DNA of 64,000 nucleotides from NCBI RefSeq assembly GCF_029639405.1, contig NZ_CP121274.1:2108001-2172000 (forward strand), given 5' to 3'. The stretch's first letter is position 1; the number at the start of each line of letters is the position of its first letter. This DNA is from Microbacterium proteolyticum (lineage in GTDB: Bacteria > Actinomycetota > Actinomycetes > Actinomycetales > Microbacteriaceae). The notes beneath the pieces are model-generated. The model saw only the letters and a program-made list of their open reading frames with translations, did no database searches and was not told where the DNA came from. A program made the position numbers and the translations under genes. Shown here piece by piece: positions 25,999 through 60,925 of the stretch.

Positions 25999-26064
25999 GC
26001 GCGAGTCGCCACGATCTGTCGCCTGATCCCGGAGCGAGGCGACACATCCCGGCGACTCACGCGC
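25999..26064. repeat. Nested four-copy palindrome (element 1) in convergent gap
   Basis: The outer arms GAGTCGCC (26003-26010) and GGCGACTC (26051-26058) enclose inner arms TGTCGCCT (26017-26024) and AGGCGACA (26037-26044). The outer stem extends with GCGC on each side around a two-base bulge. The motif GTCGCC therefore occurs twice on one strand and twice inverted. The right arm includes the stop codon of the RDD gene. There is no U-run, so it is not an ordinary terminator. Two elements with the same plan but different sequence lie at 30819-30885 and 60862-60925. Confidence 0.7.
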
Positions 26065-26890
26065 GTTCGGTGAGGGAGGCCGCGCGCTCGTTCTCGAGCA
26101 TCAACGCGCGGTACTCGCGCTCGCGACGCACCGCCGCAGCCGCGCGCACCAGGGTCTCGGGGTCGACGGCCGGGATCGGCGCCACGTAGGGCGCCACCGC
26201 CTCCGCGAGTCCCGCGGCCACGCGCGCCCGCGCGCCCGGCTCCAGGGCGTCGGCGCCGCGGACGAACTGCGCCATGCGCGCTGCAAGACGATCGGGCAGG
26301 CGCGAGACGTCGGCGACCGCGGCCCAGTCCTCCATCCCCGGTGGGACGCCGGGTGCCGCCGCGGGGAGCGGACGGGTGCGGGTCCGCTCGGACGCGGTCC
26401 CGGCCAGCAGGTCGCCCAGGCGCTGGGCGCGCGGAGTGAACATGCCGACGATCGCGGCGATCCCGCCGAGCGTGAACCACAGTTCGAGCACGCCCACCAA
26501 CGCGCGGATGAAGGCATGCCGGAAACCGGCCGCACCGCCGTCGACGCGCACGATGCGTCCACCGACCGCCCACCGGCCGAGGCTCCGCCCCCGCGAAAGC
26601 GTCTCGACGGCCGTCGGGATCACGACCATGACGACGACGAGGAGCGTGATCAGGCCGATGCGGAAGGCGCTGTCGGGAATGGTGCCGCCGGCGACGAGCA
26701 CGGACAGGAACACCGACCCCGCGATCAGCAGGATGATCCCCGCGACCATGTCGATGAGGCATCCGACCGCCCGCAGGAAGAAACCGAGCGGCTGGACGTC
26801 CAACGCGACGGCTTCTCCGGTCAGCGTCTCGTCCGCGTCGATGTGCGCGCGCGAGACCCCGGGGGAGGAGGGGGTCGCGGGGGAGGCCAT
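26057..26890 (-). CDS. RDD family membrane protein
   Basis: 277 residues. The RDD domain starts FFLRAVGCLIDMVAGIILLI (Arg and Asp of the name) and runs to SRGRSLGRWAVGGRIVRVDG (second conserved Arg/Gly block) and TPRAQRLGDLLAGTASERTR. About four helices are present. The C-terminal third is a soluble Ala/Arg-rich helical region. RDD proteins are linked to ion (Na+/H+ or Li+) transport or osmotic response in a few cases, otherwise unassigned. It is divergent from the SpoIIM-like gene, as in Rv3694c/Rv3695. ATG 26890 gives the usual short N terminus. Confidence 0.88.
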   Translation of the reverse strand: MASPATPSSPGVSRAHIDADETLTGEAVALDVQPLGFFLRAVGCLIDMVAGIILLIAGSVFLSVLVAGGTIPDSAFRIGLITLLVVVMVVIPTAVETLSRGRSLGRWAVGGRIVRVDGGAAGFRHAFIRALVGVLELWFTLGGIAAIVGMFTPRAQRLGDLLAGTASERTRTRPLPAAAPGVPPGMEDWAAVADVSRLPDRLAARMAQFVRGADALEPGARARVAAGLAEAVAPYVAPIPAVDPETLVRAAAAVRREREYRALMLENERAASLTERA

Positions 26891-26893
26891 GCG

Positions 26894-26899
26894 TACAGT
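26894..26899 (+). promoter_or_regulatory. Candidate leaderless -10 before the SpoIIM-like gene
   Basis: TACAGT, 7 bases before the ATG at 26907, in a 16-base gap between divergent starts. Confidence 0.45.
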
Positions 26900-26906
26900 T
26901 GACCAC

Positions 26907-27902
26907 ATGGACCTCGACGCCCTCACGGCCGCGCGACGGGAGGAGTGGGCTCGGCTCGACGAACTGGGTCGCACGCGGCGACTGACGGGCCCGGAGGTGG
27001 ACGAGCTCGTCACCCGCTATCGTGCGGCATCGGCGGACCTCGCCGACATCAAGACGTCCGCGGGTCGCACGCCGCAGGGCGACTACGTCTCGATCCTGCT
27101 CGCCCGCACCCGGCTGCGGCTCACCGGTGTCCGCGAGAACGTGCTGCGACAGGCGCCGCGGTTCTTCCTCCTGCAGCTCCCCGCGGCGCTGTACCGCGTC
27201 CGGTGGACGACGCTCGCCGTCGCGGTGGCCTTCGTGGTGGTGGCGACGCTGATCGGGTTGTGGATCTCGTCCGATCCCCGCGCGGTCGCCGCCCTCGGCG
27301 CGCGCAGCGAGCTGCAGAACTACGCCGACGAACAGTTCGTGCAGTACTACCGCGAGAATCCGAACGCGATCTTCGCCGGCACGGTGTGGACGAACAACGC
27401 GTGGATCGCGGCGCAGTGCGTGCTGTTCGGGGTGACCGGGTTCTGGCCGTTGATGGTGCTGATGCAGAACGCCGTCGGGGTGGGGTCGTCGGCGGCCGTC
27501 ATGATCGCCTTCGACCGGGCGGACGTGTTCTTCCAGTTCATCCTCCCGCACGGTCTGCTCGAGCTGACGGCGATCTTCGTCGCCGGCGCGGCGGGTCTCC
27601 ACATCTTCTGGGCCTGGGTCGCCCCGGGTCGCCGGACGCGATCCGCGGCGCTCGCCGCGGGTGGCCGGTCGTTGGCGACCGTGGCGGTGGGGCTCGTGTT
27701 CGCGCTCGGACTCTCGGGGCTGGTCGAGGGGTTCGTGACGCCGTCCACGCTGCCGTGGCAGGTGAAGATCGCGATCGGTGCCGCCGCGCTCGGCGTGTTC
27801 CTCGCCTACATGCTCGTGCTCGGGCGCCGGGCTCACCGTGCGGGCGAGACGGGCGACGTCACCGAGTACGAGGCCGGCACACCGACGCTGACGTCGGGCT
27901 GA
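26907..27902 (+). CDS. SpoIIM/DUF95 family membrane protein
   Basis: 331 residues. A soluble N-terminal helical region (ARREEWARLDELGRTRRLTG) is followed by about six helices. TVWTNNAWIAAQCVLFGVTG and PHGLLELTAIFVAGAAGLHI are the characteristic SpoIIM/DUF95 blocks (the Gly, His and Glu are conserved). In non-sporulating actinobacteria this family travels with RDD, DUF58, MoxR and DUF4129 genes, which here resume at 35.8 kb. The function is unproven; a membrane partner of the MoxR AAA+ chaperone system is the usual suggestion. Confidence 0.9.
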   Translation: MDLDALTAARREEWARLDELGRTRRLTGPEVDELVTRYRAASADLADIKTSAGRTPQGDYVSILLARTRLRLTGVRENVLRQAPRFFLLQLPAALYRVRWTTLAVAVAFVVVATLIGLWISSDPRAVAALGARSELQNYADEQFVQYYRENPNAIFAGTVWTNNAWIAAQCVLFGVTGFWPLMVLMQNAVGVGSSAAVMIAFDRADVFFQFILPHGLLELTAIFVAGAAGLHIFWAWVAPGRRTRSAALAAGGRSLATVAVGLVFALGLSGLVEGFVTPSTLPWQVKIAIGAAALGVFLAYMLVLGRRAHRAGETGDVTEYEAGTPTLTSG

Positions 27903-27938
27903 GGCATCCGCGATTCTCGTCGTTCCCCGGCGCGTCAT

Positions 27939-30689
<2,751 letters not shown>

Positions 30690-30727
30690 GTCCCGCGCCG
30701 CGCGGCCCTGTGCCCGCGGCATCCGCC

Positions 30728-30760
30728 GGAAGGCCCGTCCCCCCGTGGGGCGGGCCTTCC
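30728..30760 (+). terminator. Hairpin terminator after katG
   Basis: GGAAGGCCCG at 30728-30737 pairs with CGGGCCTTCC at 30751-30760, and an inner CCCC/GGGG extends the stem. No long U-run follows (GCCGTTGTCT). It starts 38 bases after the katG stop. Confidence 0.7.
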
Positions 30761-30818
30761 GCCGTTGTCTCGGCCGCTGTTCCGGTGCTGCCGTTGCCGG
30801 AGCGACGCCGCACCAGCG

Positions 30819-30885
30819 CGATAAACGCGATTGGCGGCGAGAAACGGGATGCCGTGGCGTTTCTCGTCGTGGATCGCGTTTATCG
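30819..30885. repeat. Nested four-copy palindrome (element 2) in convergent gap
   Basis: The outer arms CGATAAACGCGAT (30819-30831) and ATCGCGTTTATCG (30873-30885) pair perfectly over 13 bases. The inner arms CGAGAAACG (30838-30846) and CGTTTCTCG (30858-30866) pair over 9 bases. The outer and inner arms resemble each other (CGATAAACG and CGAGAAACG), giving two direct and two inverted copies of one motif. It lies between katG and oleD, which converge, 59 bases beyond the katG terminator. Confidence 0.8.
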
Positions 30886-30931
30886 GGGAGAGGGGGGTGC
30901 GGCGCGCAGCAGAGTGCGGCGCGCAGGGAGG

Positions 30932-31891
30932 CTACGCGCGGGCGAGACGGCGCAGGCCCTCGTCGATCGAGACGGCAGGCTTCCACCGGAGGTCGCGGCG
31001 GATCTCGGTCTGATCGAACCAGTGCGCCGTGGAGAGCTGCTCGGCGAGGAAACGGGTCATCGGCGGTTCATCGGCGCCGGGGCGGACGGCCCACACGCGC
31101 TCGACGAGACCGCCGGCCGCGCGCGCCAGCCCGGCGGGGATGCTGAACCGCGGCGGCCGCACGCCGGAGGCGAGACAGATCCCGGCGAGCAGGTCGCCCA
31201 CGGGCCGCGGTTCGCCGTTGGTCAGCACGTACGCGCGTCCGCTGACGTCGTCGACGTGCTCGAGGGCCGCGACGATCCCGGACGCGGCGTTGTCGACGTA
31301 GGTGGAGTCGATCAGGGCCGTGCCGCCGTTGAGCAGCGGCAGCCGACCGCGACGGGCGCGGTCGACGACGCGCGCGATGAGCTGCGTGTCGCCGGGACCC
31401 CAGACGAGGTGCGGGCGGATCGCGACGAGGGATGCCGAGTCGCCGGCGCGCGAGAGGGCGAGCAGCTCGGCCTGGGCCTTGGTGCGGGCGTACTCGCCGC
31501 GGGCGCCGAGCGGGTCGGCGGGTTCGGCGCCCACCCCGGCCAGCGCGTGCCCGGCGTGGGCGACGGACGGCGACGAGACGTGCACGATGCGCGTGACCCC
31601 GGCGGCTGCGGCGGCGTCGAGGAGCGTCCGCGTCCCCTCGACGTTGACGGCGTGGAACTCGCCCGGGTCGCCCGCGAGAGACACCTTCGCGGCCAGGTGG
31701 ACGACGGCGTCGACCCCGTCTACGGCGGCGGCCGTGGCATCCGGGTCGGTCACCGAGCCGAGGTGGTCCTCGGCGCCGGGCACCCCCGACGGGCGCCGCT
31801 GCAGTGTCCGGACCACGTGGCCGGCGTCCTGCAGCGCGCGGACGACGGCGCGACCGAGGAAGCCGGACGCGCCGGTGGCGAGGACTCTCAC
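30932..31891 (-). CDS. oleD: OleD: NAD(P)H-dependent 2-alkyl-3-ketoalkanoic acid reductase
   Basis: 319 residues, extended SDR fold. The nucleotide-binding VRVLATGASGFLGRAVVRAL is followed by DAVVHLAAKVSLAG, the catalytic Ser block IVHVSSPSVAHAG and YARTKAQAELL with the Tyr-x3-Lys pair. OleD reduces the beta-keto acid made by OleA to a beta-hydroxy acid, the substrate of OleC. It is the last gene of the oleA-oleBC-oleD operon. Its GTG start at 31891 overlaps the oleBC stop (GTGA). Confidence 0.93.
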   Translation of the reverse strand: MRVLATGASGFLGRAVVRALQDAGHVVRTLQRRPSGVPGAEDHLGSVTDPDATAAAVDGVDAVVHLAAKVSLAGDPGEFHAVNVEGTRTLLDAAAAAGVTRIVHVSSPSVAHAGHALAGVGAEPADPLGARGEYARTKAQAELLALSRAGDSASLVAIRPHLVWGPGDTQLIARVVDRARRGRLPLLNGGTALIDSTYVDNAASGIVAALEHVDDVSGRAYVLTNGEPRPVGDLLAGICLASGVRPPRFSIPAGLARAAGGLVERVWAVRPGADEPPMTRFLAEQLSTAHWFDQTEIRRDLRWKPAVSIDEGLRRLARA

Positions 31892-34536
31892 GGCGCCGTC
31901 GGCTTCTCGCCGGCGAGCACGCGCTCGGCCCACCGCGCGAGGCGCGAGCGGTCGATCTTGGAGTTGTGGCGGATGTCCGTCGGCAGCGCGGGCACGACGA
32001 GCACGGCCGCGATCGGCAGCGCGGTCGCGGCCCGCACGACCTCGGTCAGACCCGCGGATGCCACGCCCGGGCGCCGCACGGCCGGGTCCCGTTCGATCAC
32101 CACGGCGATCACCTGGCGTCCGACCGGACCGACCCCGACGGCGGCGGCGCGGACGACACCGGGTGCCGCCTCGACGTCCTGCTCGATGCCGACCGGCGTG
32201 ACCGGGCCTTCGGAGGTCGTGATGACGTGGGGGAGCCGCCCCTCGATCCAGAGCCGTCCGGCCGTGTCGAGGTGGCCGACGTCGCCGGTGCGATGCCACC
32301 GGCCCCGGAGGTCGTCGAGATCGCGCGTCGCCTCGCGGTCGGTGAGGTGGAGCCGGAAGTAGCCGCGCTTGAGGTGCGGCGCGCTGATCACGACCTCGCC
32401 CGTGACCCCGGCGTCGGTCGTGGGGGTTCCGGTGGCGCGCCCCCGGGCGTCGAGCGCCGCGATGCGGACGCGGCCCCGACCGATGGGCGCCCCCACGCAC
32501 ACGCCGCGATCGGCGGAGGCGTCGGCCTCCTCGATCTCGGGCAGCGTGACGTCCGCGACGAGCAGGCACTCCGTCATCCCGTACGGCGTGTGGGCGGTCG
32601 CGTTCGGCATGAGGCGCTGCGCCTGGCGCAGCAGGGGGGTCCCGACGGGCGCCCCGGTGGACAGGAACGTGCGCACGCGCTCGAGCGCCGCCCGTTCCTC
32701 GGACCCCAGCGCGTCGGCGCTGGCAACCACGTTGCGGACGGCGGCGGGGGAGAGGAAGACGATGCCCGCGTCCGAGGCTCGGACGGCGGCGGCGACCGCG
32801 GATGCCGTGAGCGTGCGCGGCGCGGACACGTCCATGTCGGGGGTCGCCGAACGCGTGCCGAGGGCCGGGCCCAACAGCGCGAAGGGGGCGAAGCCCGTCA
32901 CGAGTCCGGTGTCGGGGCCGACGTCGAAGTGCTCCGCGAGGGCGTTCCGCAGCGACGAGAGCTGGCGATGCGTGTACACGGCGCCCTTCGCGGGTCCCGT
33001 GGACCCGGACGTGAAGAGGATCGCGGCATCCGCGTCGGCGTCCGGCGGGACGGGGAGCGCCCGACCGCGGCCCGCCCGGGCGATCTCGGCGAGACTCGCC
33101 TCGACCCCGAGGGCGCGCATCGCGGCGGCGGGGAGGGCCGCGGCCGCGATGCGGCGTCCCGGCCAGCCGAGCGCGCGCGCGGCGGCGAGCCCCGCGAGCT
33201 CGCCGATGACGACGTCGGGCACGGCCCCGCGGACGGCGCGGGACAGCCCCCGGATGCCGAGACCCCGGTCGGCCACGACGACGACGGCGCCGATGCGCAG
33301 GCACGCGTACAGCACGGCGGTGAGCGTGGGGCCCGGGGGGACGAGCAGCGAGACGCGGTCGCCCGCGCGGACGCCGAGGACGTCGAGACCCGCGGCGAGC
33401 TCGTCCACGCGGGCGGCGAGCTGTCGCCAGCTCACCCGCAGCGGGGCGTCGGCGGAGCCGCTGGCCATGTCGATGACCGCGACGTCGTCGTCCGCGCGGC
33501 GCGCCTCGAGGGCCTCCCACAGGGGCGCGGGCGCCGGGGTGTCGTCGACGTGCGTCGGGGACGCGGCATCCGCGCCGGCCGAGACGCGGTGATCGAGCCA
33601 GTCCAGCACCGCGTCGGCGTACGGACGCTCCTCGGCCAGCAGGTGCCCCGCGCCCTCGAAGCGGTGGACGTCGGCGTGCGGCAGACGGTCGACGAGGTCG
33701 TCGAGGTGAGCCTCGAGGAACACCGGGTCCTTCGGGCCGCGGAGCAGAAGGGCGGGGACGTCGAGGTCGCGCAGCCCTGCGGAGAGGCTCCGCAGCGCCG
33801 GGGTGCTCTCGTCGTCCGCGGTGGCCGGGATGTCGGCGACGAATCCCCCGACGCCTCGTCGGCGCGCCACGGTGGCGTACGGTGCGCGGAACGCCGCGCG
33901 CACCGCGGGGTCGAGGTCGGCGAGCGCGAGCGTCGTGTCGAGGAACGCCGTCGTCCCCGTCGTGCCCGCAGCGAGCACGCCGCGCGCGGTCGCGACGCGC
34001 AGCGGGAACGGCAGCGGCGCGTCCTCCGCGTGGTGCACGGCGGTGTTGAGCGCGATGACGGCGGCCAGGCGCGCGGGATTGCGCACGGCCCAGCCGAGCG
34101 ACACCGGCCCGCCCCAGTCGTGGCCGATGGTCACGATCGGACCCGGGATGCCGAGGGCCTCGATCAGGCCGGAGAGGTCGGCGATGCGCTGAGCGAGCGT
34201 ACGACGCAGGTCGGTCCGGTCGGAGAAGCCCATCTCCAGCTGGTCCACGGCGACGACGCGCCACGCGGGAGCCCCCGCCTCGGCCCGCGCGAGGGACGCG
34301 TTCACGAGCGCGCGCCACAGGTACGACCAGGTCGGGTTGCCGTGCACCGCGACGATCGTTCCCTGGGCGACGATCCCGCGATCGGCGAGCGCGTCGCCGG
34401 TGTCGAGGATGTGCCACGTACGACGGTGGCCGGCGTCGGCCGCGGTGCCCTCCACTTCGACCAGGCGCGACAGGGCGGGATCGAGGCCGGGGAGCCCGGC
34501 CGGGGGAAGGGTCGCGGACAGGCCGGTGACCGTCAC
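31888..34536 (-). CDS. oleBC: OleBC fusion: beta-lactone decarboxylase plus beta-lactone synthetase
   Basis: 882 residues. The N-terminal OleB domain (about 1-330) is an alpha/beta hydrolase of the haloalkane-dehalogenase type: VAVHGNPTWSYLWRALVN oxyanion block, nucleophile Asp in IGHDWGGPVSLG, and a late His in FEGAGHLLAEE. The C-terminal OleC domain (about 350-882) is an AMP-binding-type ligase with AILFTSGSTGPAKGAVYTH, TPYGMTECLLVADV and the hinge GRWHRTGDVGHLD. OleC makes a cis-beta-lactone from the beta-hydroxy acid using ATP; OleB removes CO2 to give a long-chain cis-olefin. The same fusion is known in Micrococcus luteus. The GTG start at 34536 overlaps the oleA stop. Confidence 0.95.
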   Translation of the reverse strand: MTVTGLSATLPPAGLPGLDPALSRLVEVEGTAADAGHRRTWHILDTGDALADRGIVAQGTIVAVHGNPTWSYLWRALVNASLARAEAGAPAWRVVAVDQLEMGFSDRTDLRRTLAQRIADLSGLIEALGIPGPIVTIGHDWGGPVSLGWAVRNPARLAAVIALNTAVHHAEDAPLPFPLRVATARGVLAAGTTGTTAFLDTTLALADLDPAVRAAFRAPYATVARRRGVGGFVADIPATADDESTPALRSLSAGLRDLDVPALLLRGPKDPVFLEAHLDDLVDRLPHADVHRFEGAGHLLAEERPYADAVLDWLDHRVSAGADAASPTHVDDTPAPAPLWEALEARRADDDVAVIDMASGSADAPLRVSWRQLAARVDELAAGLDVLGVRAGDRVSLLVPPGPTLTAVLYACLRIGAVVVVADRGLGIRGLSRAVRGAVPDVVIGELAGLAAARALGWPGRRIAAAALPAAAMRALGVEASLAEIARAGRGRALPVPPDADADAAILFTSGSTGPAKGAVYTHRQLSSLRNALAEHFDVGPDTGLVTGFAPFALLGPALGTRSATPDMDVSAPRTLTASAVAAAVRASDAGIVFLSPAAVRNVVASADALGSEERAALERVRTFLSTGAPVGTPLLRQAQRLMPNATAHTPYGMTECLLVADVTLPEIEEADASADRGVCVGAPIGRGRVRIAALDARGRATGTPTTDAGVTGEVVISAPHLKRGYFRLHLTDREATRDLDDLRGRWHRTGDVGHLDTAGRLWIEGRLPHVITTSEGPVTPVGIEQDVEAAPGVVRAAAVGVGPVGRQVIAVVIERDPAVRRPGVASAGLTEVVRAATALPIAAVLVVPALPTDIRHNSKIDRSRLARWAERVLAGEKPTAP

Positions 34537-35555: not shown

Positions 35556-35775
35556 GAGAGCTCCCGCATCCTGTGCGTAGACGGCCGAGCCGCGCGCGGA
35601 GGGACACGCCGGCGGCTGGAAGGGTACCCCCCAGGATAAGCCGCGACGTATGCGACCGGCTGCATGGGGAGTGTGTGCTACGCCAGCGGATGCCGAGTTC
35701 GTCGCCGTCCCGACGGTGCCGTCATGGTGTCGCGGCGCTTAGCGCGGCTCGACCCGCGGCGGTGAACCGGCGTCG
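35556..35775. other. Intergenic region upstream of oleA
   Basis: This 220-base gap separates oleA from the DUF58 gene on the same strand. It must hold the end of the DUF58 operon and the oleA promoter. Candidate features are the short palindrome GCGCTTAGCGC near 35735 and, on the minus strand, TACCCT near 35628 as a possible -10. I see no convincing -35 or regulator site. Confidence 0.4.
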
Positions 35776-46955: not shown

Positions 46956-46962
46956 CCGTCGA

Positions 46963-47003: not shown

Positions 47004-47015
47004 TTAGCCGACGAC

Positions 47016-48326: not shown

Positions 48327-48332
48327 GGCTCG

Positions 48333-48434: not shown

Positions 48435-48440
48435 TAGCAT
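48435..48440 (+). promoter_or_regulatory. Candidate -10 of secA
   Basis: TAGCAT 67 bases before the secA GTG start, leaving a leader of about 60 bases with GGAG at 48497-48500. No clear -35 is visible. A longer reading from an upstream ATG would add residues absent from SecA proteins. Confidence 0.4.
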
Positions 48441-48507
48441 GACCGTGTATGCCTGTACGCAGGCCGGCGTCCACGAGGGCGCCGCACCCGATAGATGGAG
48501 ATGCTTC

Positions 48508-51309
<2,802 letters not shown>

Positions 51310-51317
51310 CCCCGCCT

Positions 51318-51363
51318 CACGGATGCCGTGCCCCCGCAGATGCGCGGGAGCACGGCATCCGTG
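51318..51363 (+). terminator. Hairpin terminator after secA
   Basis: CACGGATGCCGTGC (51318-51331) pairs perfectly with GCACGGCATCCGTG (51350-51363), with further internal pairing. No U-run follows. It starts 8 bases after the secA stop. Confidence 0.75.
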
Positions 51364-51410
51364 CGTCGGGACAGGCCACGGGTGGTCGATTGGCCGGTTC
51401 GGCCCGGGGA

Positions 51411-51416
51411 TATCCT
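51411..51416 (+). promoter_or_regulatory. Candidate leaderless -10 before the aminotransferase
   Basis: TATCCT, 6 bases before the ATG at 51423. TTGGCC at 51390 is a possible -35 with 15-base spacing. Confidence 0.5.
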
Positions 51417-51422
51417 GAGGCG

Positions 51423-52649
51423 ATGAGCCCGCTGCGCCCCCTCGATCAGTCGTCGAAGCTGAAGGACGTCCTCTACGAGATCCGCGGGGAGGCCCTCGTC
51501 GAGGCCGATCGACTCGAGGCCGAGGGGCACTCGATCCTCAAGCTCAACACGGGCAACCCGGCGACGTTCGGCTTCGAGGCGCCGCACCAGATCGTCCGCG
51601 ACATGATCGCGTCGGTGCCCCACGCGCACGGGTACAGCGACAGTCGCGGCATCCTGTCGGCCCGCCGCGCGGTCGTGTCGCGCTACGAGCAGGAGCCCGG
51701 CTTCCCGCACGTCGACCCCGACCACGTGTACCTCGGCAACGGGGTGTCCGAGCTGATCACCATGACGATGCAGGCGCTGCTCGACGAAGGCGACGAGGTC
51801 CTCATCCCGGCCCCGGACTACCCGCTGTGGACGGCGATGACGAGCCTGGGGGGCGGCACCCCGGTGCACTACCTCTGCGACGAGTCGCGCGAGTGGCAGC
51901 CCGACCTCGAGGACATCCGGGCGAAGATCACGCCGCGCACCAAGGCGATCGTCGTGATCAACCCGAACAACCCGACCGGCGCGGTGTACTCGCGCGAGGT
52001 GCTCGAGGGCATCGCCGACATCGCCCGCGAGCACTCGCTGCTCGTGCTGTCGGACGAGATCTACGACCGCATCCTGTTCGACGACGCGGTGCACATCCCG
52101 ATGGCCACGGTCGCGCCCGATCTGCTCGTGCTGACGTTCAACGGCCTGTCCAAGACGTATCGCGTGGCGGGGTACCGGTCGGGGTGGCTCGTGATCACGG
52201 GGCCCAAGGATCACGCCGAGGGCTTCCTGCACGGCATCACGCTGCTGGCATCCACCCGCCTGTGCCCGAACGTGCCGGCGCAGTTCGCCGTCCAGGCGGC
52301 GTTGTCGGGGGTGCAGTCCATCAACGCGCTCGTCGCGCCGACGGGGCGTCTCCACGAGCAGCGGGATGCCGCGTGGAAGGGTCTCGAAGCGATCCCGGGG
52401 GTCTCGTGCGTGCTGCCGCGCGGTGCGTTGTACGCCTTCCCGCGGTTCGACCCCGAGGTCTACGAGATCCCCGACGACGCCAAGTTCGTGCACGACTTCC
52501 TGATCGCCGAGCACGTGCTCATCGTCCAGGGATCGGGTTTCAACTGGCCCGCCACCGACCACGTGCGCATCGTGACGCTCCCCGAGGCCCGGGTGATCTC
52601 GGATGCCGTGGAGCGGCTGGGCAACTTCCTGGCGTCCTGGCGACCCTGA
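51423..52649 (+). CDS. PLP-dependent aminotransferase (AlaA/AspC-like, class I)
   Basis: 408 residues. LKLNTGNPATFGFEAPHQIV, the substrate-side GYSDSRGILSARRAVV, AIVVINPNNPTGAVYSREVL with the ring-stacking and phosphate contacts, and the Schiff-base Lys in NGLSKTYRVAGYRSGWLV (about residue 245) give a class I fold. Similarity is closest to bacterial AlaA-type glutamate-pyruvate aminotransferases. An aspartate specificity is possible. It has its own leaderless-type promoter and is not coupled to secA. Confidence 0.9.
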   Translation: MSPLRPLDQSSKLKDVLYEIRGEALVEADRLEAEGHSILKLNTGNPATFGFEAPHQIVRDMIASVPHAHGYSDSRGILSARRAVVSRYEQEPGFPHVDPDHVYLGNGVSELITMTMQALLDEGDEVLIPAPDYPLWTAMTSLGGGTPVHYLCDESREWQPDLEDIRAKITPRTKAIVVINPNNPTGAVYSREVLEGIADIAREHSLLVLSDEIYDRILFDDAVHIPMATVAPDLLVLTFNGLSKTYRVAGYRSGWLVITGPKDHAEGFLHGITLLASTRLCPNVPAQFAVQAALSGVQSINALVAPTGRLHEQRDAAWKGLEAIPGVSCVLPRGALYAFPRFDPEVYEIPDDAKFVHDFLIAEHVLIVQGSGFNWPATDHVRIVTLPEARVISDAVERLGNFLASWRP

Positions 52650-52656
52650 GAGGGCG

Positions 52657-53088
52657 TCACAGCAGCGCCAGGGCGGTGACGCGCCACCGGCCGTCGAGGC
52701 CCTCGATGCGGAGGGCGATGGCGCGCGTGCGCGTCCGCGCCGCGGCGATCACCGTGGCCTCGACGACGCCGTCGGCGGGCGAGGAGAGGTGCACCGACCG
52801 GATCTCGTGCACGTCGCGCGGTGCCGGCATGCGTCGGGCGCTGCGGGCCCGTGCGGCGAGGCCCGCGCGGACGACGACGGCGCGGTAGACGTCCTCCGTC
52901 GTCCACCGTGCGAGCTGCTCCGCCTCGCGAACGCCCGCGAAGACCTCGAGCACACCCCGGACGACGTTGCGGGTGAAGACCTCCGCCGAGGGGAGGTGCG
53001 CGGTCGAGGTGCGCTGCGGGGCGAAGAACGCGTCGGTGCGGACGGCGGCGGAGGCGTGCTCCGAGCCGCGGAGGAGGGGAGCGGGCAT
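52657..53088 (-). CDS. Rv3235-like (DUF6459-type) protein
   Basis: 143 residues with an Ala/Arg-rich disordered N terminus. A C-terminal domain of about 90 residues starts FTRNVVRGVLEVFAGVREAE and reads through LARWTTEDVYRAVVVRAGLA to RTRTRAIALRIEGLDGRWRV. This is the form of the small actinobacterial family of Rv3235, always close to secA. The function is unknown. ATG 53088 follows GGAAG. The stop is 7 bases from the convergent aminotransferase. Confidence 0.8.
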   Translation of the reverse strand: MPAPLLRGSEHASAAVRTDAFFAPQRTSTAHLPSAEVFTRNVVRGVLEVFAGVREAEQLARWTTEDVYRAVVVRAGLAARARSARRMPAPRDVHEIRSVHLSSPADGVVEATVIAAARTRTRAIALRIEGLDGRWRVTALALL

Positions 53089-53534
53089 GGGGGACTTCCG
53101 TGTTTCGTGTGTGCCGGGGGACTGTGGCACGACGCTAGGACGGCACAGGCGGTGAAGCGAACCGCGCGTCGCCCCGGAGACCGGGCGTCGCGGGGGTGAG
53201 ACGCGGGTCCATCGCATTGCCCGTCACGACGACCGTGCCGCCGCCCCCTGGCATCCGTGCGGGGGAGGACGGCGGACGAACCGGTCAGGGGGTGACGGTG
53301 CCCAGAGCGGGCGATCATCATGTCCCCCGAGTTGCCGGGGTGGGCGGTTCACCCGCCTTCTTCACCCGCAGACCCCCCCCCCGTCGCGTGGTCGCGCCCG
53401 AGGGGGACGACGCGCCGGCGAGGACATCGACGTGAGCCGCTCCGTTTCCCCCTCGCTAACCTCGCGCTCCGCGGGAAGTGGCGGGGGATGCGTACGTTCC
53501 CAGGTGATTCCTCATGTCTACCAAGGAGATCCGT
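53089..53534. other. 446-base gene-free stretch upstream of the secreted nuclease
   Basis: A divergent region serving the Rv3235-like gene (minus) and the nuclease (plus). It contains a run of ten C at 53373-53382, repeated CGG/GGG tracts, and TAGCGT on the minus strand near 53136 as a possible -10. For the nuclease, TAACCT near 53457 or TACGTT near 53491 could be -10 elements. No protein with credible composition or known RNA is seen. The ribosome-binding site AAGGAG for the nuclease is at 53523-53528. Confidence 0.5.
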
Positions 53535-56500
53535 ATGTCTGCGCGCCCGTTGTCCATGTCGGCGCTGTCCAGCGCCCTCGCCGCCGTGATCGTCGGCGCC
53601 CTGATCCCTCTTGCGGCGGTCGCACCGGCCCAGGCCGACACCGCCGGCACCGGCGTGATCATCAACGAGGCGTACCTGAAGGGCGGAAGCGCGAACGCCC
53701 CGTACTCGAAGAAGTTCGTCGAGCTCTACAACCAGGGCGGCACCGACGTCGACCTGTCCACGTGGTCGCTGCAGTACCGGTCGGCGACCGGCACGAGCGC
53801 CTCCAACGGCGTCGGCGCCCTCAGCGGGACGATCAAGGCCCACTCGTACTTCCTCGTGCAGCTCAACGGCAACGGCTCGACCGGCGCGGCGCTTCCCACC
53901 CCCGACCTCGACCTCGCCGGCAAGGTGACGCCGTCGGGCACGACGGGCACGCTCATCCTCGCCAAGACCACGAGCGCGATCACTTCGCCGACCGGCAGTG
54001 TCACGGGCAACCAGAACATCGCCGACCTGCTCGGGTACGGCGCATCGAACACCTACGAGGGTCGTGTGGTGCCGGTCACCGGGGCGAACGACACCCCGAA
54101 CTCGCTGGCACGGACGGGCTTCTCCGACACCGACGACAACCGCACCGACTTCACGCACCCGGCCTCCATCACGCCGCAGAACTCCGCGTCGTCGTCGCCG
54201 TCGCCCTCCCCGTCGCCCACGGCCTCGCCGACCAACTCGCCCACGGCGTCGCCGAGCCCGTCGCCGACGACGCCCGCGGCATCCGTCACGGCCATCGCGG
54301 CGATCCAGGGAACCGGCGACGCGTCGCCCCTGAACGGCCAGACCGCCACCACGCGCGGTGTGGTCACCGCCGCGTACCCCTCGGGGGGCTTCGCCGGCTA
54401 CTACGTGCAGACCGAGAACACCGGCGGCGCGATCGACTTCGCCTCCCACACCGCGTCGGACGGCCTGTTCGTCTACTCGCCCAGCACCGTCGGCCAGGTC
54501 GCCGTCGGCGACGTCGTCCAGGTCACCGGAACCGTCGGCGAGTACTTCGGCCTGACCCAGCTCACCGTGGCCTCGGGCGGCGTGACGAAGGTGGGGACCG
54601 GCAGCATCACCCCCGCGACCGTCGCGGTTCCGCGTGACGCCGCCCAGCGCGAGTCGCTCGAGGGCATGCTGGTCGCCCCGCAGGGTGCGTACACGGTCAG
54701 CAACACCTACTCGACCAACCAGTACGCCGAGATCGGCCTGGCCACCGGCACCACGCCGCTGATCACCCCGACCGAGATCGCGCGCCCCGGCACGGCCGAG
54801 TACACCGCCGCGGTCGCCGACAACGCCGCGCGCGGGATCACGCTCGACGACGGCGCCTCGATCAACTTCCTCGGCAGCGCCACCAACAAGGCCATCCCGC
54901 TGCCGTACCTGACCAAGACCACGGTCTCCGTCGGCGCCGCGGCCACCTTCACGCGCCCCGTCGTGCTGGACTACCGCAACAACACGTGGAAGCTCCAGCC
55001 CACCGCGCAGCTGACCGCGGACAACGACGCACAGGTCGCGCCCGCCACGTTCTCGAACGTCCGTCAGGCGGCGCCCGCCGCCGTCGGCGGCGACATCAAG
55101 GTCGCGACGTTCAACGTCCTGAACTACTTCACCACGACCGGTGACACCCTCACCGGCTGCTCCTTCTACACCGACCGCGCCGGCACCCCCATCACGGTCA
55201 ACACCGGCTGCGACGCCCGCGGAGCCGCCAACGCCACGAGCCTCCAGCGTCAGCAGGACAAGATCGTCACGGCGATCACCACCCTGGGCGCGGACGTGGT
55301 GAGCCTCGAGGAGATCGAGAACTCGGCCGTCTTCGGCAAGAACCGCGACTCCGCGCTCAGCACCCTCACCGCTGCGCTGAACACCGCCGCCGGCAGTGAC
55401 GTGTGGGCCTTCGTGGCATCCCCGTCGACCCTGCCGGCGTCCGAGGACGTCATCCGCACCGCCTTCATCTACAAGAAGGCGACCGTGCGCACCGAGGGCG
55501 ACTCGCGCATCCTGACGACCGGTTCGGCCTTCGACAACGCCCGCCGCCCGCTGGCTCAGAAGTTCGGCCTCGTGGGCAAGGGCGACGACTCCACGTTCAT
55601 CGCGATCGCCAACCACTTCAAGTCGAAGGGATCGGGCACCGGTGCCAACGCCGACCAGGGTGACGGGCAGGGCGCCTCGAACGCGTCGCGCGTCGCCCAG
55701 GCCGGCGACCTGGTGTCGTTCGCCAATGGGCTGAAGAGCGAGTGGGGAACCGACCGGGTGTTCCTCATGGGCGACTTCAACGCCTACTCGAAGGAGGACC
55801 CCATCAAGGTCCTCACCGACGCGGGGTACATCGACCAGGGTTCCAAGTCGGGCAAGTACTCGTACTCGTTCAGCGGTCAGAGCGGCTCGCTCGACCACGT
55901 CTTCGCGTCGTCCGCCGCGGACCAGCGCGTGCGCGGTGCCGACATCTGGAACATCAACTCCGGCGAGTCCATCGCCCTGGAGTACAGCCGCTACAACTAC
56001 AACGCGACGAACTTCTACGACACCTCGGCGTTCCGCTCCAGCGACCACGACCCCGTGCTCGTCGGCCTGGACCTCACCCCCACGGCGACGGTGAACCTGG
56101 TCGACATCAACGACTTCCACGGTCGTATCGACGCCAACACCCCGCAGTTCGCGGGAACGATCGAGCAGCTGCGCGCGCAGTACGGGGAGGCCAACACGCT
56201 GTTCCTCTCCAGCGGTGACAACATCGGCGCCTCGCCGTTCGCGTCGGCGTCGCAGAACGACCAGCCCACGATCGACGTGCTCAACGCGCTCGACCTGAAG
56301 GCGTCGGCCATCGGAAACCACGAGCTCGACAAGGGCTTCGACGACCTCGTGAACCGCGTGGTCGGCACCGGTCCCAACGCGAAGTTCGCCTACCTCGGCG
56401 CCAACGTGTACCGCAAGGGCACGACGACCCCCGCCCTGCCCGAGTACGCCATCACCACGGTGGCGGGACTGCGGGTCGGCGTCATCGGCACCGTCACGCA

Positions 56501-58796
56501 GGAGACCCCGGCGCTCGTCTCGCCCGGCGGTGTGAGCGGCGTGGACTTCGGCGACCCCGTCGAGGCGACCAACCGCGTGGCCGCCCAGCTCACCGACGGC
56601 GACCCCGCCAACGGTGAAGCGGATGTCATCGTCGCGGCCTACCACGAGGGCGCGGGCGCCGGAACTCCCGACGGCGCGACGCTCGCTCAGGAGATCGCCG
56701 CGGGCGGACCGTTCGCCAAGATCGTGACGCAGACCTCGGCGAAGGTCGACGCGATCTTCACCGGTCACACGCACAAGACCTACGCGTGGGACGCCCCCGT
56801 CCCCGGCGCCACCGACGGCCGCACGCGCCCCGTCATCCAGACGGGCAACTACGGCGAGAACATCGGCAACGTCGTCCTGACGGTCTCCGACACCACCGGT
56901 GACGTGCTGTCCTACACGGGCGCCAACGTCGCGCGCACCAAGACCGCGACGAACACCCTGGTCGCCACCTACCCCCGCGTCGCGCAGGTCAAGAGCATCA
57001 CGGATGCCGCCCTGGCCGCCGCAGCTCAGATCGGCAACCAGCCGGTCGGATCGGTGACCAAGGACATCACCACGGCGTACGCGGGTGGCTCCTACACCAA
57101 CGGCGTGTACACCGGTGGGTCGCGCGACGACCGCTCGAAGGAGTCGACCCTCGGCAACCTCGTCGCGGACTCGCTCGTGACCAGCCTCGGCGCAGTGGAC
57201 CGCGGTGGGGCGCAGATCGGTGTCGTGAACCCGGGCGGTCTGCGCGCCGAGCTGTTCTACGCCCCCGACGGTGTCGTGTCCTACTCCGAGGCCAACGCGG
57301 TCCTGCCCTTCGTGAACAACCTCTGGACGACCTCGCTCACGGGCGCGCAGTTCAAGACGCTTCTCGAGCAGCAGTGGCAGACCAACGCCGACGGCACCGT
57401 GCCGTCGCGTCCGTTCCTCAAGCTCGGCCTGTCGAAGAACGTCGCGTACACGTTCGACGCGAGCCGCGCGGCCGGTGACCGGATCACCTCGATCACGGTC
57501 GACGGCGTCGCGATCAACCCCACCGCGTCGTACCGGATCGGTTCGTTCAGCTTCCTCGTGCAGGGCGGCGACAACTTCCGCGTCTTCACGCAGGGCACGG
57601 GCACGAAGGACTCGGGTCTGATCGACCGCGACGCCTGGATCGACTACCTCAAGGCGAACCCGGGCCTCGCGCCCGACTTCGCCCGACGGTCGGCCCAGGT
57701 CACGGGCGTCCCGTCGACGCCCGTCACGGCCACCTCCTCGCTCGCGCTCACGGTCTCGGGTCTCGACCTGACGTCGCTCGGCAGCCCCGCCAACACCACG
57801 GCGTCGGTCGAGTGGACCGGCAGCTCGGCGTCGTTCGCGCCGGTGACGGTGTCGGGCGGTTCGGCGAGCCTCTCCCTGACGGTGCCCACGGATGCCGTGG
57901 CCGCCAGCGAGATCGTCGTGCGGGCGCAGCCGAGCGGGACGATCGTGCGCATCCCGGTGACGGTCGCGGTCGATCACGACGCTCCCCGCGTCAGCCTCTC
58001 GGTGAGCGGCCGCACCGTCACCGTCTCGGCCACCGACGCCGGTGCGGGTGTCGCCTCGGTCGAATACCGCCTGGACGGGGGTGTCTGGACGGCCTACTCC
58101 GCCGCCCTGGTGCTCGACGACAAGGCGCACACGGTCGAGGCCCGCGCCACCGACAAGGCCGGCAACGTCTCGACGGTCGCTTCGACGTCGCTGGCGTCGG
58201 TCGACACCACGCAGACGCCGGTCCTGACCGCGCGCGGCACGGCTCGCACCGTCACCGTGGGCGACTCCGTCGCGCCGGGCTCGGTGTCCGTCGCGGATGC
58301 GAGCGGTTCCGCACTGTCGGGGGTCGCGGTGACGTTCAAGGTCTCGGGTCCCGCCACCTTCGCCGGTGGCAAGACGAGCGTGCGTGTCGTCTCCGACGCA
58401 CTGGGACTCGCTACCGCACCGTCGGTGACGACCTCGGCGGCGGGTGCGGTGAAGGTCACGGCCAGTGCTCCGCTCGCCACCAAGGTGTCGCTCCCCGCGA
58501 TCACGGTGGTGGCCAAGGCGCCCGCGCTGACGATCGACGGTACGGCCACGACGAGCATCGTCAGCGGCAAGGCGCGCCTCACGGTCCGCGTCACGAACAC
58601 CGCGACCGAGACCGTCGCCATCAAGATCAAGACCGTCTACGGCTCGAAGACCGTCGCGACGCTGGCTCCCGGAGCCTCGACCGAGGCCGTCTTCAAGACG
58701 GCGCTGACCTCGCTCCCCGCGGGTTCGGCGACGGTCGAGATCACCGGCGCCTCGGGGGCGAACACCGTCGAGCTGCCCTACACGGCGACGCGATGA
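53535..58796 (+). CDS. Secreted multidomain nuclease / 5'-nucleotidase (ExeM-NucH-like)
   Basis: 1753 residues from ATG 53535, chosen because AAGGAG lies 6 bases before it; an upstream ATG at 53514 precedes that site. A Sec signal peptide is cut after PAQA (about 34). A lamin-tail domain (about 38-180) is followed by a Ser-Pro linker (SPSPSPSPTASPTNS, about 220) and an OB-fold ExeM region (about 250-500). An EEP nuclease follows (about 519-845; KVATFNVLNYF, DVVSLEEIENS, VFLMGDFNAYS, SSDHDPVLVG). A metallophosphatase comes next (about 851-1100; DINDFHGR, IGNHELDKGF, FTGHTHKTYA), then a 5'-nucleotidase C domain (about 1170-1375). Ig-like and glycine-poor beta domains run to the end. There is no LPXTG or membrane anchor. 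The probable job is degradation of extracellular DNA and nucleotides to recover phosphate and nucleosides. Confidence 0.93.
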   Translation: MSARPLSMSALSSALAAVIVGALIPLAAVAPAQADTAGTGVIINEAYLKGGSANAPYSKKFVELYNQGGTDVDLSTWSLQYRSATGTSASNGVGALSGTIKAHSYFLVQLNGNGSTGAALPTPDLDLAGKVTPSGTTGTLILAKTTSAITSPTGSVTGNQNIADLLGYGASNTYEGRVVPVTGANDTPNSLARTGFSDTDDNRTDFTHPASITPQNSASSSPSPSPSPTASPTNSPTASPSPSPTTPAASVTAIAAIQGTGDASPLNGQTATTRGVVTAAYPSGGFAGYYVQTENTGGAIDFASHTASDGLFVYSPSTVGQVAVGDVVQVTGTVGEYFGLTQLTVASGGVTKVGTGSITPATVAVPRDAAQRESLEGMLVAPQGAYTVSNTYSTNQYAEIGLATGTTPLITPTEIARPGTAEYTAAVADNAARGITLDDGASINFLGSATNKAIPLPYLTKTTVSVGAAATFTRPVVLDYRNNTWKLQPTAQLTADNDAQVAPATFSNVRQAAPAAVGGDIKVATFNVLNYFTTTGDTLTGCSFYTDRAGTPITVNTGCDARGAANATSLQRQQDKIVTAITTLGADVVSLEEIENSAVFGKNRDSALSTLTAALNTAAGSDVWAFVASPSTLPASEDVIRTAFIYKKATVRTEGDSRILTTGSAFDNARRPLAQKFGLVGKGDDSTFIAIANHFKSKGSGTGANADQGDGQGASNASRVAQAGDLVSFANGLKSEWGTDRVFLMGDFNAYSKEDPIKVLTDAGYIDQGSKSGKYSYSFSGQSGSLDHVFASSAADQRVRGADIWNINSGESIALEYSRYNYNATNFYDTSAFRSSDHDPVLVGLDLTPTATVNLVDINDFHGRIDANTPQFAGTIEQLRAQYGEANTLFLSSGDNIGASPFASASQNDQPTIDVLNALDLKASAIGNHELDKGFDDLVNRVVGTGPNAKFAYLGANVYRKGTTTPALPEYAITTVAGLRVGVIGTVTQETPALVSPGGVSGVDFGDPVEATNRVAAQLTDGDPANGEADVIVAAYHEGAGAGTPDGATLAQEIAAGGPFAKIVTQTSAKVDAIFTGHTHKTYAWDAPVPGATDGRTRPVIQTGNYGENIGNVVLTVSDTTGDVLSYTGANVARTKTATNTLVATYPRVAQVKSITDAALAAAAQIGNQPVGSVTKDITTAYAGGSYTNGVYTGGSRDDRSKESTLGNLVADSLVTSLGAVDRGGAQIGVVNPGGLRAELFYAPDGVVSYSEANAVLPFVNNLWTTSLTGAQFKTLLEQQWQTNADGTVPSRPFLKLGLSKNVAYTFDASRAAGDRITSITVDGVAINPTASYRIGSFSFLVQGGDNFRVFTQGTGTKDSGLIDRDAWIDYLKANPGLAPDFARRSAQVTGVPSTPVTATSSLALTVSGLDLTSLGSPANTTASVEWTGSSASFAPVTVSGGSASLSLTVPTDAVAASEIVVRAQPSGTIVRIPVTVAVDHDAPRVSLSVSGRTVTVSATDAGAGVASVEYRLDGGVWTAYSAALVLDDKAHTVEARATDKAGNVSTVASTSLASVDTTQTPVLTARGTARTVTVGDSVAPGSVSVADASGSALSGVAVTFKVSGPATFAGGKTSVRVVSDALGLATAPSVTTSAAGAVKVTASAPLATKVSLPAITVVAKAPALTIDGTATTSIVSGKARLTVRVTNTATETVAIKIKTVYGSKTVATLAPGASTEAVFKTALTSLPAGSATVEITGASGANTVELPYTATR

Positions 58797-58842
58797 CCGT
58801 CGTCACCGGTATCGACTCTCTCTCAGAACGGAACAGCTGATC

Positions 58843-59271
58843 ATGGACAACCTCACTCCTGCACACGGCGTCACGCGACGTTCGTTCACCAGGGCCGCCG
58901 CATGGAGCGTTCCGGTGATCGCGGTCGCGGTCGCCGCCCCCGCGGCATCCGCGTCCGGAGCTCTCTCGGCCAGTGCCTACGACATCTCCGACGTCGAAGC
59001 GGGTGACTCCTTCCCGCTGTCGATCGACGTCGCGGAAGGAGGCAAGCCGCTGGCCGACGGCACGGTCGTCACGGTGAGCCTCACCGACAACGCCGTGCTC
59101 GAATTCGATCCCGACGCGGACGGCTTCGTCACCTCGACGATCGCCAGCGTGCCGATCATCGGCGGGGTGGCCAACGCGATCGTGCTGGTGCGTGCCTTCG
59201 GCACGACCACCGGCGCCGTCGCGTACCGCTCCTCGCAGGTCAGTTACGTGGTGGGCGTGACGCAGGCCTGA
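58843..59271 (+). CDS. Small Tat-exported Ig-like protein
   Basis: 142 residues. A twin-arginine signal reads VTRRSFTRAAAWSVPVIAVA, ending AAPAASASG. The mature part of about 105 residues is Thr/Val/Ala-rich and predicted beta-sandwich (TVVTVSLTDNAVLEFD), resembling bacterial Ig-like or surface adhesion folds. No catalytic residues are seen. It lies 47 bases after the nuclease and is closed by a perfect terminator, so the two genes probably share a transcript. Confidence 0.8.
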   Translation: MDNLTPAHGVTRRSFTRAAAWSVPVIAVAVAAPAASASGALSASAYDISDVEAGDSFPLSIDVAEGGKPLADGTVVTVSLTDNAVLEFDPDADGFVTSTIASVPIIGGVANAIVLVRAFGTTTGAVAYRSSQVSYVVGVTQA

Positions 59272-59277
59272 GATCCG

Positions 59278-59319
59278 AACGCTGTCGCCCCGGGTGCAGG
59301 CACCCGGGGCGACAGCGTT
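59278..59319. terminator. Perfect 20-bp hairpin terminator
   Basis: AACGCTGTCGCCCCGGGTGC pairs base for base with its complement after a two-base AG loop. It starts 7 bases after the Tat protein stop. Confidence 0.9.
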
Positions 59320-59339
59320 CCCGACGGACTCGGTGCCCG

Positions 59340-59345
59340 TAGGGT
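59340..59345 (+). promoter_or_regulatory. Candidate leaderless -10 before pdtaS
   Basis: TAGGGT, 6 bases before the GTG at 59352; no ribosome-binding site lies between. Confidence 0.5.
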
Positions 59346-59351
59346 GAGAGG

Positions 59352-60848
59352 GTGTCGACACTCAGCGAACTCGTCTACGCCCAAGGCCGCTCCAGCGAGG
59401 CCGACGTCGAGTGGCTGCACCGGCTCGCCGGCGACGGCCAGCTGCTCGCCGACCTGGCCTTCGCCGACATCGTGATCTGGGTGCCGACCCCGGACGACTC
59501 GTTCGTCGCCGTCGCGCACACGCGTCCCGGGGGAGCGGCGACCCTGTTCTACCGCGACATCGTCGGCGACCGTGTGCGGCCCCAGTGGCGCACGCAGGTG
59601 CGCGAGGCGTTCCAGAGCGGACGCATCGTCGACTCGGCATCCCCCGACTGGTTCGAGGAGACGCCGACGCGCGTGCGCGCGGTGCCCATCGTCCGCGAGC
59701 TCTCGCGCGACGGCCACGCCGTGACGACGGTGGGCGTGCTCACCCGCCACACCAACCTGGGCGAGACGCGCACGCCCTCGCGTCAGCAGATCACGTTCAA
59801 CGACTGCGCCGACGATCTGTTCGGCATGATCTCCTCGGGCGAATTCCCCGACCTGAAGGCCCCGACCTCCCCGCGCCGCGGCGCTCCGCGCGCTTCGGAC
59901 GGCCTCATCCGTCTCGATGTCGACGGCATCACGACCTTCGCGAGCCCGAACGCGCTGTCGGCCTTCAACCGCATGGGCTTCGACGACGAGCTCGAGGGGG
60001 AGTCCCTCGCCGAGGTCACCGAGCGCATCCTCCCCGCCAAGCGTCAGGACGTCGACGAGTCGCTGCCCATCGTGGTGACGGGGCGCGCTCCGTGGCGGGC
60101 CGACATCGAGGCGCGCGGTGTGCAGGTGTCGCTGCGGACCATCCCGCTCCGCGACCGGGGGACGCGCATCGGCGCGATCGTGCTCAGCCGCGACGTCACC
60201 GAGATCCGCCACCAGGAGCAGGAGCTCATCACCAAGGACGCCACGATCCGCGAGATCCACCACCGGGTCAAGAACAACCTGCAGACCGTGGCCTCCCTCC
60301 TCCGCATCCAGGCGCGGCGCACGCACTCCGACGAAGCCCGGGATGCCTTGACCCAGGCCATGCGGCGCGTCTCGGCGATCGCGGTGGTCCACGACACGCT
60401 GTCCGAGGGGCTGGCCCAGAACGTCGACTTCGACGACGTGTTCGCGCGCGTGCTGAAGCTCGTCGCCGAGGTCGCCGCCGCCCCCAACACCCGGGCGCGC
60501 ACCCGCAGCACCGGGCGGTTCGGCACCCTTCCGAGCGAATACGCCACGCCCCTCGCGCTCGCGCTGACCGAGCTCGTCACCAACGCCGTCGAGCACGGCC
60601 TCGCGGGTCAGGAGGGCGACGTGGAGATCGCCGCTGAACGCGGCGACGAGATGCTCGAGGTGCGGGTGCGCGACACCGGCGTCGGCCTCCCCGAGGGACA
60701 GGTGGGCCGGGGCCTGGGCACGCAGATCGTGCGCACGCTCATCCAGGGCGAACTGGGCGGAACCATCGACTGGCACACCCTGATGGGCAGCGGTACCGAG
60801 GTCACGATCGAGATCCCGCTGCGCTACATCGACCGCGTCACCGCCTGA
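59352..60848 (+). CDS. pdtaS: PdtaS-type sensor histidine kinase
   Basis: 498 residues. An N-terminal GAF-like domain (about 1-150) is followed by a PAS domain (about 185-300; LIRLDVDGITTFASPNALSA). The HWE/HisKA_2 phosphorylation helix is REIHHRVKNNLQTVASLLRI (His about 305). The ATP-binding domain reads LALTELVTNAVEHGLAGQEG, VRVRDTGVGLPEG and GRGLGTQIVRTLI. This is the Rv3220c/PdtaS layout, whose cognate PdtaR acts as an RNA-binding antiterminator and is encoded elsewhere. It is soluble, with no membrane helix. The gene is convergent with whiB1, as in mycobacteria. Confidence 0.94.
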   Translation: MSTLSELVYAQGRSSEADVEWLHRLAGDGQLLADLAFADIVIWVPTPDDSFVAVAHTRPGGAATLFYRDIVGDRVRPQWRTQVREAFQSGRIVDSASPDWFEETPTRVRAVPIVRELSRDGHAVTTVGVLTRHTNLGETRTPSRQQITFNDCADDLFGMISSGEFPDLKAPTSPRRGAPRASDGLIRLDVDGITTFASPNALSAFNRMGFDDELEGESLAEVTERILPAKRQDVDESLPIVVTGRAPWRADIEARGVQVSLRTIPLRDRGTRIGAIVLSRDVTEIRHQEQELITKDATIREIHHRVKNNLQTVASLLRIQARRTHSDEARDALTQAMRRVSAIAVVHDTLSEGLAQNVDFDDVFARVLKLVAEVAAAPNTRARTRSTGRFGTLPSEYATPLALALTELVTNAVEHGLAGQEGDVEIAAERGDEMLEVRVRDTGVGLPEGQVGRGLGTQIVRTLIQGELGGTIDWHTLMGSGTEVTIEIPLRYIDRVTA

Positions 60849-60861
60849 CCGCCGCGCAACG

Positions 60862-60925
60862 TCAGCGATCCGCGCACCTTCAGCCATTCTCGGCGGCTGC
60901 GCGCTGATTCGACGCGGATCACTGA
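60862..60925. repeat. Nested four-copy palindrome (element 3) in convergent gap
   Basis: The outer arms TCAGCGATCCGCG (60862-60874) and CGCGGATCACTGA (60913-60925) match at 12 of 13 positions. The inner arms CAGCC (60881-60885) and GGCTG (60895-60899) form a short stem. TCAGCGAT and TCAGCCAT are two direct copies, with inverted partners at 60901 and 60917. It lies 13 bases after the pdtaS stop and before the whiB1 terminator. Confidence 0.65.

Follow-up and report, generated by a model that had tools for sequence, protein, structure and literature searches.

The Microbacterium proteolyticum window analysed here, a whole stretch of 64 kb (C2:2108001-2172000) within a 3.97-Mb genome, contains three short nested palindromes, each of which is a member of a repeat family. 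Elsewhere in this and related genomes, copies of two of these families (A and B), and arms of a fourth family (D), lie on both sides of genes for related proteins that are predicted to join an AbiEi-type module to a Vsr-like endonuclease fold. We think it probable, with some reserve, that the elements are the dispersed target sites of systems resembling REPtrons (repeats coupled to an enzyme gene), in which an AbiEi-Vsr nuclease would spread or homogenise the palindromes. Both the cognate gene and the families at the scale of the genome were found outside the 64-kb window, and no nuclease homologue was found either in the window or at the rsmB loci examined.

All three palindromes of the original prediction are present, element 1 being two bases shorter than had been claimed, and all three do lie between converging genes; none is assigned a strand. 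Element 1 (family A, 64 bp, 25999-26062) has an outer box GAGTCGCCA at 26003-26011 and an inner box at 26017-26022, with the inverted inner and outer boxes at 26039-26044 and 26050-26058 respectively. Element 2 (family B, 67 bp, 30819-30885) consists of boxes at 30819-30829, 30838-30848, 30856-30866 and 30875-30885 around a dyad centre G-N-C at 30851-30853, and element 3 (family C, 64 bp, 60862-60925) has TCAG at 60862 and 60880 and inverted boxes that end at about 60907 and at 60925. At 77 % pairing or more, the window has no palindromes of this class besides elements 1 and 2, and none occurs in any of eight shuffles; there are two at 73 % pairing (shuffles 0-2) and three at 69 % (shuffles 2-6), so that looser palindromes are no richer than chance. 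RNA folding z-scores for the plus and minus strands are −4.3 and −5.3 for element 1, −8.3 and −6.2 for element 2, and −1.8 and −2.6 for element 3. The anticipated excess over shuffled sequence is thus seen for elements 1 and 2, whereas element 3 is hardly distinct as a palindrome and exceeds chance as a member of a repeat family, not as a hairpin. Rfam families gave no matches in the window at gathering scores.

A search of the genome and its relatives for such foldbacks yields four families, and membership of dispersed, genome-wide families lends support to the earlier suggestion that the elements are REP-like (REP, repetitive extragenic palindromic). Family A has 52 copies in this genome (64 bp long in 43, 63 bp in eight and 62 bp in one) and family B has 44, of which 39 are 67 bp long. 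Family C was found at 11 distinct places in the sequence examined; its alignment held one apparent false member (L033) that was excluded afterwards. Family D, with GAGTGTCCAAGACACG arms and 51 arm matches in this genome, was first met in a gap whose orthologue holds an A element, and since its elements align with the A covariance model over the length of the model (best E-value about 2e-8, many weaker), A and D may be related. The plan of four copies of one motif is firm for B, in which identity between outer and inner boxes is highest at offset 19 (0.79), and weaker for A (0.62 at offset 13) and C (0.52 at offset 18); in the GAGGGGTCA subtype of A the inner box differs from the outer. In a second dialect of B, present in 20 of 99 genomes of the genus, many copies have GAGAAACCAC or a close variant in each of the four boxes, and among 74 such elements picked by their outer boxes alone the inner boxes match the outer with an identity of 0.87 at offset 19. 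Within 475 kb examined, the box words GTGAGTCGCCA and ATAAACGCGAT occur 63 and 41 times inside elements and never outside them, and the shorter words GAGGTGCCA, CGAGAAACG and TGTCGCC occur outside them three, two and 139 times. At L243 1420-1780 (genome G072), at L237 and L238 (G093) and at L135 and L138 of the present genome, D or B elements are clustered at intervals of about 100-200 bp, with conserved arms and with centres or flanks that partly differ. We rejected the idea that A or B came from phages or plasmids, since neither one A consensus nor element 2 has a match at E 0.01 in 50,697 phage and 72,556 plasmid records, a search that left C and D aside.

Following clusters of B copies, we came upon a gene that encodes a protein of 317 residues and has a B copy on each side. 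The same arrangement is found in all five genomes that have a homologue beside a fetched B locus (L307 in this genome, G007 L303, G020 L304, G071 L289 and G025 L290), two of which carry the other dialect; in G025 the gene copy is frame-broken and the second B copy is weak (E 5e-5). The gene of a related protein has an A or A-like element at each end in all three loci (L308 in this genome, G058 L305 and L103), and a third related gene is bordered by D arms on both sides in G048 (L291) and G053 (L299, a gene remnant) and on one side in G009 (L293). This A-flanked gene retains its A or A-like elements in three genomes (L043 3535-3795, with L087 and L103) even though the C-terminal parts of the proteins are no more than 72-77 % identical. 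In the predicted structure (AlphaFold predicted local distance difference test score 92.9) the first 190 residues resemble AbiEi antitoxin, a DNA-binding regulator, and the last 110 or so resemble Vsr and the EDxHD homing endonuclease I-Bth0305I; the acidic residues E191, E195, D226, E237 and D239 are invariant across nine proteins. On this model the encoded protein is probably a DNA-cutting enzyme. An NCBIfam scan of the nine proteins gave nothing over the cut-off, the family B nuclease protein has no match in phage records, and its 49-row profile has none among PDB sequences.

Because these loci had been found through their elements, the layout needed a test that started from the protein. 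Eight homologues were chosen in plasmid records by protein similarity alone (one from Collinsella, three each from Arthrobacter and Tsukamurella, and one from Nonomuraea) and their flanks were scored by a rule that asks on either side of the gene for a palindrome with a score of at least 13 and a length of at least 40 bp no more than 350 nt away (500 nt in unannotated regions), an 11-mer being common to both sides. The rule is satisfied by four of the eight (four of the five annotated, none of the three unannotated) and by not one of the 156 other genes of the five annotated regions. Three of the regions were unread before the rule was written, and one of them, L315, passes with a 60-bp pair; at L313, related but degenerate palindromes can be seen by eye on both sides. 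The palindrome differs between organisms, each having its own: the 64-bp palindrome of Tsukamurella is present at 20 places in eight records, and that of Collinsella at 11 places in one record, a count in which a single palindrome may figure once per strand. That a gene for a probable DNA-cutting protein lies between palindromes in several bacterial groups suggests a little-known type of DNA that spreads itself.

The elements have a characteristic position relative to genes, as judged from codon-based gene calls made with the same caller in this genome and in its relatives. The errors of these calls include the A-flanked nuclease gene and a minus-strand open reading frame at element 1 (26057-27013), both of which were missed; the TGA stop of the latter is the element's own TCA at 26057-26059, so the A copy there is really convergent, with the plus-strand stop codon at 25984-25986 preceding it by 12 nt. 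The 52 A copies of this genome are convergent (25) or tandem (27) and never divergent or inside a gene, and 46 of them lie between −6 and +18 nt from a stop codon, 12 exactly at −6, where the TGA of the element is itself the stop; in tight convergent pairs A occupies most of the intergenic gap. The 44 B copies comprise 19 convergent, 19 tandem and six divergent ones, with looser distances from the stop codon. In relatives, 15 strong A loci are divided into eight convergent, five tandem, one divergent and one inside a gene, and 14 weak A-like loci into seven, five, one and one; for B (n=56) there are 22 convergent, 22 tandem, five divergent and seven unclear, for the second dialect (n=29) 14, nine, four and two, and for D (n=16) 13 tandem, two convergent and one divergent. 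In the window, element 2 lies between a plus-strand gene of the Pfam peroxidase family (28431-30689, the start being that of the codon-based call), which we take to be KatG-like, and a minus-strand gene of the NAD-dependent epimerase/dehydratase family (30932-31891). Terminator-like hairpins adjoin two of the elements, as had been claimed, at 30724-30764 after the peroxidase gene and at 60971-61001, where the stem is a perfect 13 bp; element 2 is not the sole 3′ structure of its gap. With a dnaA-like gene at C2 1187678-1189093 as origin reference, the origin-proximal half holds 25 of 36 B and 26 of 39 A sites after clusters are collapsed, a mild enrichment only. Second-dialect B sites fall in that half in 13 of the 14 among the matches listed in G071 and in five of seven in G067.

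Comparisons within the elements distinguish between a double-stranded site and an RNA hairpin. When arms of this genome are dealt randomly, the agreement of left and right outer boxes stands out strongly (A, z 6.1; B, z 6.8) and that of the B inner boxes less so (z 2.6), and the spacers are only slightly more complementary than under permutation (A, z 1.7; B, z 2.4), the centres not at all. Among 66 second-dialect B elements from genomes with at least three, z is 2.3 for the spacer (2.9 for its first four columns), −1.6 for the inner box and −3.1 for the centre. Outer and inner boxes of B also co-vary, with z 3.9 in this genome and 9.3 in relatives, values in which the kinship of copies is uncontrolled. 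The compensatory change that had been looked for in the arms is accordingly strong in the boxes and weak in the spacers, and since this is so, dyad-symmetric double-stranded four-box sites are favoured over an RNA fold-back, although a hairpin could still have a role. The earlier proposal of sites for a dimeric protein gains support. The elements could otherwise work at the RNA level, as hairpins that terminate transcription in both directions or stabilise the 3′ ends of mRNA and that share sequence through common descent alone, as the absence of divergent A copies, the closeness of A to stop codons, its filling of tight convergent gaps and the strong folding of elements 1 and 2 would lead one to expect. 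In the first pair counts A was slightly in excess and B was not; in tandem B copies read in the sense orientation G-U pairs outnumber A-C (27 versus 17), which agrees with such hairpins, but the direction is the opposite in tandem A copies (25 versus 31), and in second-dialect B spacers there are 63 G-U and 72 A-C. Moreover, the 15 nt that follow A are depleted in T, where an intrinsic terminator would have a U tract after the hairpin (a terminator of the kind that lacks such a tract could still be present), elements 2 and 3 adjoin separate hairpins, and the near-fixed length and the flanked gene are left unexplained. Most of these tests do not support the proposed RNA fold-back, for which the pairing statistics offer little, and we regard it as unlikely that the elements are terminators or stabilisers.

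Slightly more doubtful again is the explanation that the AbiEi-nuclease acts in regulation or defence by binding palindromes next to its gene, the dispersed copies being its other operators, which do not move. AbiEi antitoxins bind inverted repeats upstream of their own genes, and an AbiEi-type domain together with conserved boxes and drifting centres would suit this role; the palindromes, however, lie downstream of the gene too, and most dispersed copies are found at 3′ ends and not at promoters.

The families are unevenly distributed in Microbacterium and turn over at single sites. In the 99 genus genomes, our own included, A is found in 42, B in 56 and D in 19, the survey for A and B having used the best 52-53 matches per genome; models built from this genome miss other dialects, as the second B dialect shows. 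The gap between rsmB and rpe has A in six of 18 loci of named strains, and among 30 further genus genomes, four of whose gaps are identical with gaps of the first set, it has A in nine, D in two, B in one and none, other or unreadable sequence in the remaining 18. That the same gaps in relatives should lack the element is therefore true in part, the gap holding A, D, B or nothing according to species. The outer box of this A element has been switched in place: five named strains carry the GGGGTC type on each arm, with a single change in two of them, one carries GTCGCC on each, and the present genome has a mixture. Comparison by eye of occupied and empty versions of this one gap revealed no clear target-site duplication. 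Other repeats occupy the same gap elsewhere: a different palindrome, GCGAGATGCCACTT..AAGTGGCATCTCGCG, at about 4377-4437 after rsmB in Rathayibacter sp. Leaf185 (L184), and repeated GACACCGCTTTGCGGGC units, apparently of another type, in Frondihabitans sp. Leaf304 (L188). A palindrome that starts like the Leaf185 one (CGAGATGGCATTTG) adjoins the nuclease gene of Arthrobacter StoSoilB13. Integron attC sites were considered since A follows stop codons, and dropped since single copies adjoin housekeeping genes such as rsmB. It is improbable that the elements serve a chromosome-organising protein unrelated to the nuclease gene: dyad symmetry, near-fixed length, long box words absent elsewhere and the mild preference for the origin half would agree with such a protein, but the distribution in the genus is patchy at the reach of our models, A is tied to stop codons, and there would be no reason to flank one gene family. 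That they are classical REP elements moved by a RAYT (REP-associated tyrosine transposase, of the Y1 HUH type) is scarcely credible, even though the placement is that of REPs, which in convergent gaps lie mostly less than 20 bp from 3′ ends and often supply the stop codon (as passages of PMC3733652 describe); Y1_Tnp (PF01797) was found in one of the 99 genomes, G041, which has neither A nor B, the A and B consensus sequences lack a GTAG end, and with no PF01797 match in this genome a RAYT is rejected for it unless the enzyme is unrecognisable.

The reading that we prefer, dispersed targets of an AbiEi-Vsr nuclease, supposes that each family is a dyad-symmetric box array of about 50-69 bp (in B: motif, motif, inverted motif, inverted motif), a few copies of which flank the gene of the cognate protein. 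The AbiEi-like part would bind the boxes on double-stranded DNA, the nuclease part would cut there or close by, and repair templated by another copy would spread the element or convert its boxes in place, with copies surviving near gene ends because they do least harm there or because they act as two-way transcript boundaries. Binding is suggested by the layout, the symmetry and the AbiEi-type part, and cutting and spreading by the nuclease fold and the turnover; such a cycle would explain why dialects are concerted within a species and centres drift. The scheme takes in families A, B and D, and analogy alone would add C. We suggest more tentatively, and with rather less than even confidence, that these may be a class of actinobacterial mobile repeat in their own right, in which the nuclease, by cutting its own four-box palindromic sites, carries them to gene ends in a homing-like manner and with no transposase; its specificity would drift from one species to another, and the four boxes of dozens of copies would shift in concert.

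Several observations weigh against this scheme. No binding, cutting or movement was observed, and the centres differ among most copies while the boxes are kept, so that, local tandem duplicates excepted, there is no trace of recent copy-paste; the G-N-C centre of B is itself weaker in relatives (G in 40 and C in 37 of 57). Family C shows no co-variation of its arms at any position in eight copies, and no cognate gene was found for it. The Microbacterium nuclease loci were found via their elements, and among A- and B-rich genomes the gene is known from such loci only; moreover, other genes in this genome are flanked on both sides, five called genes by A and one besides the nuclease by B. The D arms of G048 and G053 are exact 16-mers, and the A model finds no element in L291 or L299. 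Five of the eight regions had already been examined by eye when the flank rule was drawn up; L314 fails it, although a 15-mer inverted repeat common to both sides is visible by eye, the Nonomuraea region L316 shows no flanking palindrome, and a further homologue, L320 of Tsukamurella, is bounded by a simple 22-bp inverted repeat (17738-17759 and 18795-18816) instead of full palindromes. The bounds of L320 resemble the enzyme genes enclosed by terminal inverted repeats that are reported for some RAYTs in PMC3733652. As to the protein, the structural match to AbiEi has a root-mean-square deviation of 6.0, Foldseek gave no match below E 0.001, and the B-linked proteins match no Pfam family at its cut-off.

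Dispersed palindromes are common in bacteria. Searches of the open-access literature in PubMed Central, which omits most subscription journals and preprints, brought up no account of repeats like these or of the gene layout, and as far as they show, this protein type has not previously been tied to repeats of this kind. MITEs (miniature inverted-repeat transposable elements) are dispersed non-coding copies and mycobacterial 13E12-type repeats code for a nuclease; the present elements differ in nuclease family, and no clear target-site duplication was seen by eye at the rsmB-rpe gap, the one compared. The predicted structure shares the AbiEi fold with the antitoxins of type IV toxin-antitoxin systems, and unlike them the protein also has a predicted Vsr-like nuclease fold. 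That fold and its conserved acidic residues place it near Vsr, I-Bth0305I and Pfam DUF559 / MTES_1575, from which the putative nuclease differs in being encoded by a free-standing gene between palindromes and fused to an AbiEi module. The closest parallel is with REP/REPIN-RAYT systems (REPtrons), which are described in PMC3733652 and PMC8266576 as short palindromes dispersed in tandem and convergent gaps near stop codons, with the enzyme gene between its own repeats and several families in some genomes; CGTC-tagged REPs are given there (PMC3733652) as having no known enzyme. The present elements are likewise extragenic, near 3′ ends and rarely divergent, and flank an enzyme gene, but they have no GTAG tag, are about 50-69 bp long as opposed to 20-50 bp, appear from the box comparisons to be recognised as double-stranded DNA, and accompany a predicted AbiEi-Vsr-like protein, not a HUH Y1 transposase. 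If the scheme is right, a second, unrelated enzyme has the gene-between-palindromes layout and such pairs arose more than once; a role would be suggested for DUF559/AbiEi-like proteins now labelled hypothetical or antitoxin-like, and nature would have supplied a series of protein-DNA pairs whose specificity shifts. We set this kind apart from REP-RAYT because two defining features of the latter, the Y1 transposase and the GTAG end, were tested for and not found; if any pairing of palindrome and enzyme is counted as one kind, the system is a variant within it.

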